Of a DNA stretch of 39,422 nt, positions 2,079 through 17,047 are shown in pieces. The DNA lies in IMG/VR virus record IMGVR_UViG_3300023223_000124, positions 1 to 39,422 of that record, one strand, 5' to 3'. Position 1 is the stretch's first letter. The number at the start of each line of letters is the position of its first letter. A program made the translations under genes and the position numbers. Under the pieces are notes generated by a model. That model was not told where the DNA came from and ran no database searches. It saw only the letters and a list, made by a program, of their open reading frames with translations. This DNA is from a virus.

Positions 2079-3371
2079 TTAGGTCAGGCCGAACAACTGA
2101 CCAGCGAAGAATGGATTCAAAGCTCCGTATGCAGGTCGGAAGTCGATCCGAACCTTCTGCTCATTTTCAAGGAATCCAACGCCCTTGGATACACGCAACT
2201 GAAGCCCATCTTTAGTGGTGAAGATGGTATCAGTGCTATGCAAGCGCTTGATGGGTACTGAGGTTACAGTGAAGGCGTCACGATGCCAGAACAAGGCAGG
2301 CTGAATGAGCGTGGAAGCAGCTCCTTCCAGGGTGATCACGTCACCGTTCGCAATGGCCTGGGATACAGTGTTGAACTGTCCTGCTGATTCAGAGATAGCC
2401 GGACCAGTCACCACCAAAGTACCTTCACCAGACGCGCCCAGTGTAACAGTGGCGGTTACTGTTCCTGTCCAAAGAATAGCAGCACCGTCTCCATCTACAA
2501 TCGCTTCCCGAGTAGAGAGGTTGAGGCGATTAACTGCGCCTGATGCTGCAGTTACCGTGACGACCTCACCGGCAGCAACTACCAAGTTCGCCTGGAAAGC
2601 CGTTACCGCTAGTGATTGGGTCATTGTATCCTTTGCGCCAACATATGTAGCGGTAGGCGCGGCGGTGAGTGTACCAGCTCGGTCTGCACCAGTCCCAGTA
2701 GTATGGGTAGCGAGCGTATTAGCACTCATTACCCGCATACCTGCAAAGTCATCAGTGATAACACCGCGAGTATGCGCAGACCGGACAAGACCGCCTGCTG
2801 AGCCACCAGCCCCTAGAGATCGCTGAACGTCTGCAAGAACAGTCTGCGTAAACGGATTGATAACCGCGTTCCAGCGACCGTCTTTTGGTACGCCAGTAGT
2901 CTCTAATACCGCTCCTGCGTTAGCGATATCCCCCCATGCGTCGATCTTGGTACCGACAACCCCAGACAATAGCCCTGAATTCCTTTTCATGAACTTTGCG
3001 TAATCAAGCTCAAAGTCTGTGACCATACGAGTAGCCATCGGGGCCAGCAACTCAACGATGTTCCCCATTTTAATAGCTTCGTCAGCTTCGTCGTAATCAA
3101 CGAAAGACGTAAAGTAGTCCTGAACTACTGCGCTTGCTTTGCCTGTGATGATATCGGACTTAGTTTCACCAGAAACGTCACCTGTTGCTGTTCTCACGGT
3201 TACGAAGTCAGTTGGGCGGCTTACGTCGATTGTGTCTCCAGTATCCCCTTTAAACTTGCCTTGAAAAAGTTGAGTATTGACATTAGCAGACAACACACGC
3301 TCAGACTCGAATGATGGGATAAACGCATCCATCAGCTTCCGAGTAAAATTACTGTCAAAATTATTAGCCAT
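2079..3371 (-). CDS. Major coat protein, P22 gp5-like
   Basis: The product is 430 residues, exactly the length of P22 coat gp5, and lies directly after the scaffold gene as in P22. P22-type coat proteins adopt the HK97 fold with an inserted I-domain. Here residues about 225-345 form a Thr/Val/Ala-rich beta stretch that fits such an insertion. The C-terminal part (GVGFLENEQKVRIDFRPAYG) resembles the conserved end of this family. The start is ATG at 3371 with AAAGG upstream. I am confident of the role from synteny and length; the family assignment rests on recognition, not on an alignment. Confidence 0.9.
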   Translation of the reverse strand: MANNFDSNFTRKLMDAFIPSFESERVLSANVNTQLFQGKFKGDTGDTIDVSRPTDFVTVRTATGDVSGETKSDIITGKASAVVQDYFTSFVDYDEADEAIKMGNIVELLAPMATRMVTDFELDYAKFMKRNSGLLSGVVGTKIDAWGDIANAGAVLETTGVPKDGRWNAVINPFTQTVLADVQRSLGAGGSAGGLVRSAHTRGVITDDFAGMRVMSANTLATHTTGTGADRAGTLTAAPTATYVGAKDTMTQSLAVTAFQANLVVAAGEVVTVTAASGAVNRLNLSTREAIVDGDGAAILWTGTVTATVTLGASGEGTLVVTGPAISESAGQFNTVSQAIANGDVITLEGAASTLIQPALFWHRDAFTVTSVPIKRLHSTDTIFTTKDGLQLRVSKGVGFLENEQKVRIDFRPAYGALNPFFAGQLFGLT

Positions 3372-12872: not shown

Positions 12873-12945
12873 CTCTATTCTCCTATAGTTAATCATTAGA
12901 CCTTAAGGGACATCCTGTATAAATGCCCTGTCTGTTAGTTACCTG

Positions 12946-13149
12946 TTATGCTCCGATATCATCAGATGTATCTGTGAAAAACATTGTCTTCTCAACAATC
13001 TCAGCTTCACCATCACCATCCACATTCGCAATTCTACAGAATCTTTCGGCGTCTTTTTCGCTGTCGAAGATGCAGAGCATTCCAGACTGATCCTTTTTGA
13101 TCACTCTCAACTCCTTATCACGGATTACATATACTGGACTATTCGTCAT
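12946..13149 (-). CDS. Small hypothetical protein, 67 aa, first gene after the structured RNA
   Basis: ATG 13149 has ACAGGTGTAGAG upstream. The product (SPVYVIRDKELRVIKKDQSG, then a DSEKDAERFCRIAN helix) looks like a small alpha/beta protein. It is the first open frame downstream of the large structured non-coding region, so it may share that transcript or be read from its own start. Confidence 0.65.
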   Translation of the reverse strand: MTNSPVYVIRDKELRVIKKDQSGMLCIFDSEKDAERFCRIANVDGDGEAEIVEKTMFFTDTSDDIGA

Positions 13150-14008
13150 CTCTACACCTGTTCTCGCTAGTTAAAGTCAATACTCCCCTTTTCCCCCGTG
13201 AAGTTATTCCAGTAACTACACAGCCTCTAAAGGTCGCCTTACAGCTTGGTACTAAGTCTTCCCCCTGGCTAATGCCACATCCAATCTAGGATGAATCAGT
13301 CCTCAGATACACTGAGTTTCACGGGCTAGGTTGTCAGGGTAGGACAGAGCCTAGATTTTGTATTCGGTATTCTGATCTGGCTGCGTTCTTTTAACTCTTA
13401 TCAGCATGAGGTACGGATGAAAGAGCCAGTCTTTATATGAAGGGATGCTAGGCCAGGTCGCCAACCTGGACTTTGATTTCTAGATTGTTTTTCGAGTATT
13501 TGCTTCAACGCTTCGATGGCTACCACCAAAGTGGTCAACGCCTCCACTCCACAAATCTTTCGTATCGCGCTAAACGATCTCAATCAGCTAGGCAAATCTA
13601 ACATCACCACATATAAAGACTGTTGCTCTTGATCGATTGTAATTTGCTTAGAAGAGAGTGCGGGCCGAGAGGCATCAAATCCCTACTTAGGTCCGGTTGA
13701 CCACCAGCAAGCTAGTCAGTGTTTAACTCACCCGAACCCTGCCGGGGTAATCTTAACTTGGCTCTTTACTCTCATCTAAACAAACTACACGATCATAGGG
13801 AGGGAGGAGGGATGTGCGCTAATCGGAGCATTGAACCTATGCATGTCATCCGAACCCATAGGAGGCGCGCACAAAAAAGGGCTTAAGATACGACCCCTGG
13901 TAGTGGGAGATTAACGGCATACGTGGAAGTATTACCCATGCATACCAGAAATCGTAACTTAAACCCTCTACCGTTTCTCTTTCGCCCCTTCCACAGAGCG
14001 TTACTACA
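13150..14008 (-). ncRNA. Candidate large structured non-coding RNA (about 860 nt)
   Basis: This stretch has no convincing gene. It holds many complementary segments. 13427..13439 pairs perfectly with 13610..13622 (13 bp). 13644..13659 pairs with 13768..13783 (16 positions, one G-U and one mismatch on the minus strand). 13879..13887 pairs with 13958..13966 (9 bp, one G-U). 13916..13926 pairs with 13936..13946. 13899..13903 pairs with 13968..13972 across the 9-bp helix, giving a pseudoknot. A long hairpin closes with TGTGCGC/GCGCACA (13813..13819, 13867..13873), and small hairpins occur at 13453..13469, 13522..13535, 13326..13354 and 13266..13293. In three helices the imperfect pairs become G-U only on the minus strand, so the RNA is probably read in the operon direction from the promoter at 14015..14042. 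Size and phage context recall the GOLLD and ROOL classes; I cannot assign either. A replication origin is the main alternative. Confidence 0.6.
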
Positions 14009-14014
14009 TCTCTA

Positions 14015-14042
14015 ATACTACCAAACCTGGCGGCTATTTCAA
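14015..14042 (-). promoter_or_regulatory. Candidate promoter of the structured RNA
   Basis: On the minus strand TTGAAA (14037..14042) and TAGTAT (14015..14020) are 16 bases apart. The -35 overlaps the stop codon of the upstream gene. Transcription would start near 14008, just where coding ends and the helices begin, which suggests a dedicated promoter for the RNA. Confidence 0.5.
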
Positions 14043-14251
14043 CTAATTGCTATCAAATCACCCAATATGGATTCCGCTTGGCTGAGTCCTTCGCTGCCAA
14101 AGGACTCAAGCAGGTATCTAGCTTCTTTCAGACTATATACTGGCACTGCTACAAGGCCGCGCTCTGATAGATAGGCCTGAATGTCTGATAGCGTTGCTGC
14201 CCGATGAAGCTGCCCGTCTACATCGTTAAACTGCATTACAAGCTTCATCAT
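14039..14251 (-). CDS. Hypothetical early protein, 70 aa
   Basis: ATG 14251 (a second ATG follows at once) lies behind TTTAGGAGAGAG. The product is helical, with a SLKEARYLLESFGSEGLSQA segment. It ends directly before the structured RNA region and its stop overlaps that RNA's predicted -35 element. No function is recognised. Confidence 0.65.
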   Translation of the reverse strand: MMKLVMQFNDVDGQLHRAATLSDIQAYLSERGLVAVPVYSLKEARYLLESFGSEGLSQAESILGDLIAIS

Positions 14252-14307
14252 CTCTCTCCTAAATATCTCTACACGTTATTTCCATCGGTATTACAGTTAC
14301 AAAGCCT

Positions 14308-16360: not shown

Positions 16361-17047
16361 TTAATAGCTGATAGTTACGTTGGCGATGTTGCCCCTGTGG
16401 ATAGCCATGACAATGCTTTTTGCCACCATCTCAGTTGCTCCGACAGCCATCAATGATTCTTTGGTAGCTTTGCGCACTTCGCCAACATGCGCTTTGTCTG
16501 CCTCGCGCTTTATCTTCGCGATCTCTCCGTCTCTGGCTTCGTTGTCGACACGCTCTTTCTCTTGCTGTACGGCCTTCTCAGCTGATTCCGCCTCTATACG
16601 GGCGATGTTGTCGACACGCTCCTGCTCACGTTCTGCCTTCTCAATGGTCTGGACCTTATCCATCATTAAGGAGTGCTCGTGATCAGCTTCGATCTGTATA
16701 GCCAGTGCCGCCGCATCGACTTTCGCCTTCTCTTCTGCCAGGATCTTTGCTCGCTTCTCTTTATGCTGATCAATCAGTAATGAGAATGGCAGGTTAGCGG
16801 CTTCTAATCGCTCCCGTACAGCTTTAGCCTCGGCCTCGATAGATATCTTGTGAAACTTCGCCATGTCGATACGTGAACGGTCTAACTTCTTGAGAGTTTC
16901 ATTGATGAACTGAGCTCCGTCCTTTACATATTTACGTTGTTTTTTGTCCTCCATATCCACGTAAAGACCATCATACTTCTTGCCGTCAGCCTCAAGTTTA
17001 CAAAGGGCTTCTTCGGTTGTTATCTCTTTGAATAATACGATGTCCAT
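16361..17047 (-). CDS. Coiled-coil protein next to Erf, DUF1351-like
   Basis: The product has 228 residues. The N-terminal ~70 are alpha/beta (FKEITTEEALCKLEADGKKY and onwards). Residues about 75-190 form a long, strongly charged coiled coil rich in Glu, Lys and Ala, and the last 35 residues form a small C-terminal region. Proteins of this shape are usual partners beside phage single-strand annealing genes, and the DUF1351 family is the nearest I can name. It lies three bases downstream of erf, so it probably works in the same recombination step. No nuclease motif is seen. Confidence 0.6.
   Translation of the reverse strand: MDIVLFKEITTEEALCKLEADGKKYDGLYVDMEDKKQRKYVKDGAQFINETLKKLDRSRIDMAKFHKISIEAEAKAVRERLEAANLPFSLLIDQHKEKRAKILAEEKAKVDAAALAIQIEADHEHSLMMDKVQTIEKAEREQERVDNIARIEAESAEKAVQQEKERVDNEARDGEIAKIKREADKAHVGEVRKATKESLMAVGATEMVAKSIVMAIHRGNIANVTISY

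Follow-up and report, generated by a model that had tools for sequence, protein, structure and literature searches.

To our knowledge, the giant phage RNAs GOLLD and ROOL are abundant, strikingly structured and without a known function; GOLLD assembles into a homo-oligomeric nanocage. GOLLD is a large RNA of phages and prophages that often lies beside tRNAs, which are sometimes located in the linker between its 5' and 3' domains (PMC12286853). In both RNAs, the kissing loops were found to join separate molecules, and the variable linker points towards the inside of the cage (PMC12286853). Theta ribozymes, which are HDV-like, are found 3' of phage tRNAs and have their cleavage site at the tRNA 3' end (PMC10879173). 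The Vibrio phage ICP1 makes an ORF-less RNA of ~800 nt that is its most abundant transcript (PMC7567579). Here, we describe an element that most likely represents a new class within the large structured phage RNAs, being by model neither GOLLD nor ROOL.

The window, i.e. the whole stretch of DNA that was analysed, is a single virus record of 39,422 bases. The genome around the element carries P22-like portal, head and tail-closure genes; an Erf-type recombinase belongs to the minus-strand operon, and the replication genes are on the plus strand. Between the minus-strand ORFs at 14039-14251 and 12946-13149 lies a gap of ~890 bases, in which the initial annotation had recognised no credible gene. 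Indeed, the longest minus-strand ORF inside 13150-14042 has 60 aa, starts with TTG and matches no PHROG. A coding gene is further rejected by the lack of a conserved ORF: the homologues described below are non-coding and are nearly always found in unannotated gaps. The immediate neighbours of the RNA are small genes without known identity, and no tRNA was found in the window. An Rfam search of 12900-14300, GOLLD and ROOL included, gave no family match up to E 10; the lone listing is a microRNA model that scores well under its cut-off and is attributed to chance.

The predicted fold of the minus strand has an energy of -298.8 kcal/mol, as compared to -264.6 +/- 7.9 for shuffled sequences (z -4.35), and is below all 200 of 200 shuffles; the plus strand has a z of only -2.99. 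This asymmetry agrees with the earlier observation that imperfect positions become G-U pairs solely on the minus strand. The strongest helices are those named in the initial annotation, each longer than was stated there. We regard the element, its structure and its strand as demonstrated, and the reading of these ~830 bases (~0.83 kb) as a large folded non-coding RNA is strongly supported. The minus-strand RNA is presumably transcribed. All features detailed below are on the minus strand.

Relatives sought through the flanking proteins included none that were close, and blastn of the element against phages, plasmids and E. coli returned nothing useful; a 45-base match in a Rhizobium plasmid falls within a LacI gene and is probably fortuitous. 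The portal, Hc3 and other phage relatives had nothing that matched the RNA at the nucleotide level, and a 24-mer search in genome contigs was also negative. The first homologue was reached by way of a 228-aa protein (16361-17047), which led to contig L051; a gap at the corresponding place of its operon aligns with the window RNA (E 1e-19). Exact patterns from the blocks conserved between these two sequences gave L089/L091 and then further IMG/VR contigs, and blastn with the new members gave named phages. The carriers are the Vibrio phages 1.110.O, 1.240.O, 1.242.O, 1.275.O, 1.122.A/B, vB_VaM_H2, Seahorse, BT-1011, NF and phiV208 and the Pseudoalteromonas phage H105/1. In the named phages inspected, the element occupies an unannotated gap, often with annotated tRNAs adjoining. 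In L051 and L089, the genes immediately next to the RNA share no homology with the ones that adjoin it in the window; thus, the RNA behaves as a module. Because members were found partly by exact motifs, the collection is enriched for the GGGTTTA/TAAGCCC form, and L156 demonstrates that other forms exist. Two exact matches to the pyrimidine tract (L088 and L092) were discarded as chance, the rest of the element being missing; ~20 matches to TAAGCCCTTTTTTGTG that lacked the 5' arm or were short tRNA-linked terminators were not counted as members. An RNA class of marine gammaproteobacterial phages with no earlier catalogue entry is well supported by these results, and the open-access literature (subscription journals being outside the scope) contained no description of it.

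Common to all members is a 5' domain of ~125 nt (13872..14001 in the window), which comprises a hairpin (H0), crossing helices, a GGGTTTA...TAAGCCC helix and then a U6 tract. H0 (13983..14000), which figures in the subgroup pairing counts, has the stem CGCTC/GGGCG and the loop TGTGGAAG. Within this loop, GTGGAAG (13988..13994) pairs with the downstream strand CTTCCAC (13923..13929) to form K1, and two further helices cross. In P1, AACGGTA (13969..13975) pairs with TGCCGTT (13913..13919). In helix b, the 5' arm GGGTTTAAGTTACGATTTCTGGTA (13943..13966) pairs with a 3' arm (13879..13902) that ends in ...TAAGCCC; 23 of the 24 positions pair, nine of them with double-sided changes, and the sole exception is a T.T mismatch. 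The terminator-like U6 tract (13873..13878; U5-U7 in members) comes right after helix b. The initial annotation had correctly placed a pseudoknot at 13879..13972 but drew it too small, as a 9-bp helix crossed by a 5-bp pairing; it is the 24-position helix b crossed by the 7-bp P1. Its description also lacked the 7-bp loop pairing K1 (13994..13988/13929..13923). The domain is therefore better described as a larger multi-helix pseudoknot that ends in a terminator-like helix with U6.

The conservation of this structure is demonstrated by covariation in two subgroups. In the window subgroup (the window, L051, L089 and L128), 98.8% of the cells in H0, K1, P1 and b are paired, and 17 of 41 pairs have changed on both sides; slid controls give 37-49% and zero to two such pairs. 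The nine sequences of the second subgroup are 98.6% paired, with double-sided change in 12/40 pairs, against 33-52% and one to three pairs in the slid controls. Taken singly, K1 is 100% kept in the window subgroup (6/7 pairs counted, double-sided changes in 4/6) and 100% kept in the second (three double-sided pairs), and P1 is 100% kept in the window subgroup (double-sided in 4/7). In each subgroup, the helices K1, P1 and b are mutually crossing. Further, a covariance model (R1) of H0 and b only, built from the nine second-subgroup sequences with the window excluded, matches the window solely at 13872-14001 on the minus strand (62.3 bits, E 5.9e-12). Shuffle counts should not be read as probabilities, and within the subgroups the trees have little depth; we place the weight on the slid controls and on this independent model match. 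A third arrangement (L093, L113, L133 and others), outside the counts, has the same pairings by eye in partly permuted order. In H105/1 (L062), R1 matches one place on both strands (2951-3085 plus, 2985-3114 minus), probably because the domain consists of long self-complementary helices. Decaying intergenic DNA with chance hairpins might be imagined from the small adjoining genes without known identity and the few close relatives. This notion is refuted, because dozens of pairs show compensatory changes between distant phages, and we give it practically no credence.

Another pairing in the 5' domain, helix a, joins GGTAGAGGG (13964..13972) to CCCACTACC (13899..13907). It is 100% kept, with two double-sided pairs, and some of its bases also belong to P1 or to the GGG at the foot of helix b; it is an alternative to these pairings, possibly an antiterminator. 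Helix b has the hallmark of an intrinsic terminator, a GGG/CCC stem followed by U6, and this is kept in relatives. The chief rival to the explanation that we favor below arises from these facts. In it, the functional unit would be a 5' regulatory RNA of ~135 nt, in which helix b and U6 terminate transcription unless helix a, by taking up the GGG of the terminator stem, or a phage antitermination factor allows transcription to proceed into the tRNA or the genes beyond. Members do have U5-U7 directly after the stem even though the inner sequence varies, the mutually exclusive helices (P1/a and a/b) are both kept, and the downstream tRNAs would be the regulated output. Yet this reading leaves the conserved P3, the pyrimidine tract, helix C and the 3' parts unexplained, and the window has no tRNA downstream to regulate. 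We consider a conditional terminator controlled by helix a possible, though doubtful.

What follows U6 differs among members. In 19/26, a helix begins with the tract's last U, and a pyrimidine tract, e.g. (A)CCCTTTC or TCCCTCC, comes after the 3' arm in most of those 19. The helices in this slot have many distinct arms. The window has one of these, the P3 stem TGTGCGC/GCGCACA (13813..13873), whose seven base pairs start at the last U of U6; a long hairpin at this place had already been noted. In other members a tRNA occupies the slot directly after the U tract, which supplements the earlier anatomy. The slot tRNAs confirmed by ARAGORN or Rfam are Val (L113), Met and Arg (L131) and Trp-Arg-Gly (L133), and second tRNAs lie further downstream in L093, L094, L101 and L130. 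In L119, a tRNA match of 42 bits is closed by a helix resembling helix C (sequence inspection). The tRNA slot is, in our view, demonstrated. The P3 stem and helix C of the window are at places comparable to the tRNAs of relatives, and may functionally replace them. In BT-1011 (L134, ~2112-2761), a tRNA-Met-like start directly behind U6 passes into ORFs, among them an annotated homing endonuclease, and the slot looks as though it had been invaded.

The 5' domain ends 0-2 nt from tRNA 5' ends in L113, L131, L133, L141 and L156. This proximity would suit a tRNA-processing element, in which the pseudoknotted leader recruits RNase P or cleaves itself and thereby frees the tRNA 5' ends, in a role like that of theta ribozymes. 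Against this, many members, including the window, have no recognisable tRNA while everything else is kept. Theta ribozymes, also pseudoknotted phage RNAs that abut tRNAs, act at the tRNA 3' end (PMC10879173), whereas the present domain is 5' of the tRNA. Moreover, Rfam models of self-cleaving ribozymes had no match in the window or in the relatives searched. Such a processing role is unlikely.

Downstream of the slot, the window has the pyrimidine tract TCCCTCCTCCCTCCCT (13797..13812), which has the same letters in L051 and L089 and appears as (A)CCCTTTC in others. Hairpin domain B (13638..13789) follows. The 16-position helix reported for it (13644..13659/13768..13783) is present and reaches 22 positions (13789..13768/13659..13638). 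In L051, 21/21 pairs are kept, with three double changes and a retained T.T mismatch; this evidence is modest, coming from two sequences only, and the shuffle control is weak (57/500). The 13-bp helix of hairpin domain C (13427..13622), earlier placed at 13427..13439/13610..13622, likewise exists and extends to 23 positions (13622..13600/13449..13427). Here, 63/63 cells in three sequences are paired, with five double changes. Covariation is thus strong in the two subgroups and in helix C, far exceeding that in the shuffled and slid controls. Hairpins B and C resemble each other in their 5' arms (13768-13789 and 13600-13622 in the window; GTAGTCTGTAT... in L051), which suggests that the two arose by duplication of a hairpin.

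The 3' part (13170..13420) shares motifs, in the same order, with H105/1, L138 and L145; it holds a GCTCTGT..ACAAC hairpin (13326-13354) and GGGGGAAAAGGGG (13185-13197). A long-range pairing of U6 with the 3' GGGAAAAGGG is suggestive but lacks covariation, and we do not claim it. The 3' part varies among members. That of phage NF is common to ~20 further Vibrio phages, mostly from Vibrio breoganii. A shared 3' segment of ~300 nt (L135, 2246-2546) is unannotated, and the phages that carry it differ in their 5' parts and tRNAs. The element is modular, since L089 lacks hairpin B; the L089 form of ~430 nt is the smallest seen. Directly 3' of this short form is an ORF (L089, 6841-7371) that by eye resembles an HNH-type endonuclease. 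Together, the conserved elements beyond U6 suggest that the functional RNA extends past that tract.

Upstream of the 5' domain is a sigma70-type promoter, TTGAAA-16-TAGTAT with an extended TG (14015..14042), from which the RNA would start near 14008. The initial annotation had listed this promoter, and its sequence is as described; by consensus alone, however, it is not significant (one found, 2.4 expected in shuffles), and its -10 has 4/6 matches, with a good -35. A -10-like site matching TATAAT in at least 5/6 positions is present no more than 32 nt upstream of the domain in 20/26 members, compared to 19% in shuffles. The promoter in the window gains weight from these sites upstream of the same domain.

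How, then, does this RNA compare with the described systems? It resembles GOLLD in its size, phage setting, order of parts and covarying loop pairings. Like GOLLD, the relatives are phage-borne and are near or contain tRNAs, although the window itself has none. The two differ in that GOLLD conserves its 3' region and varies its 5' region, whereas in the new class every member has the 5' domain and the variation is in the 3' part; in addition, its U6-ended helix leads straight into a tRNA or P3. In 12900-14300 of the window, the GOLLD model (RF02032) gave nothing up to E 10, nor did it match at E<=1 in the records of seven relatives, with the control genomes equally silent; the Rfam searches of other relatives also lacked it at the thresholds applied. 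ROOL, at 0.6-0.7 kb, is likewise a structured phage RNA with pseudoknots near tRNA islands. The element has other helices and modular insertions, and the ROOL model (RF03087) did not match in the window in a search for which no positive control registered. As neither model's search had a positive control that responded, very distant kinship to GOLLD or ROOL is conceivable. The element might be a very divergent GOLLD branch, invisible to Rfam's model of 416 positions. The shared size, phage setting and order of parts (5' domain, tRNA-bearing linker, 3' domain) would fit, but the silence of RF02032 and the placement of the conserved part at the 5' rather than the 3' end make this quite improbable. 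The ICP1 transcript is similar as a large ORF-less RNA of a Vibrio phage. Its ~1-kb ORF-less gap (L157, 2590-3620), which ends in a clear terminator, was rejected as a member, as a motif search showed no U6-ended core in it and the model did not match. Overall, the initial reading of a large structured minus-strand RNA, possibly new and assignable by Rfam to neither GOLLD nor ROOL, is supported.

The explanation that we favor, and to which we would give about an even chance, is that the element is a single ~0.83 kb minus-strand RNA of an uncatalogued phage class, which works as a GOLLD/ROOL-like scaffold and either carries tRNA or imitates it. The RNA would start at its own promoter near 14008. 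As it emerges, the 5' domain would fold: H0, then the K1 loop pairing, the P1 pseudoknot and the long helix b ending in U6. Because tRNAs and conserved elements follow U6 directly, polymerase would pass this tract at least part of the time. Next would come the slot, occupied by a tRNA, by a helix that has decayed or resembles tRNA or, in the window, by the 7-bp P3, and after it the pyrimidine tract, hairpins B and C and the 3' part; helix C would stand where relatives may have a second tRNA. The covarying kissing and pseudoknot pairings may hold monomers or multimers together as a stable RNA like GOLLD or ROOL, and the variable linker may display or protect tRNAs or their mimics. Oligomerisation and the handling of tRNAs are proposed by analogy only. 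In size, link to tRNAs, phage setting and covarying loops, the RNA resembles GOLLD and ROOL, and we therefore favor a structural scaffold with moderate confidence. Several facts weigh against it: most transcripts could stop at a perfect-looking terminator (helix b and U6) ~130 nt after the start, the 3' parts vary between members, and the L089 form has only ~430 nt. Also, helix a competes with P1, so that the 5' domain may act as a switch and not as a rigid scaffold. More tentatively, we propose that this is a widespread, self-promoted giant RNA that forms a homo-oligomeric scaffold with slots for tRNAs or their mimics, in which case the theme of the tRNA-associated giant RNA would have arisen at least a third time.

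This class accounts for blank gaps in many phage annotations. A further class that is unrelated by model to GOLLD and ROOL, and yet has a link to tRNAs in the slot after U6, offers a comparative clue to what these RNAs do. Finally, its presence in cultured Vibrio and Pseudoalteromonas phages provides tractable new systems.
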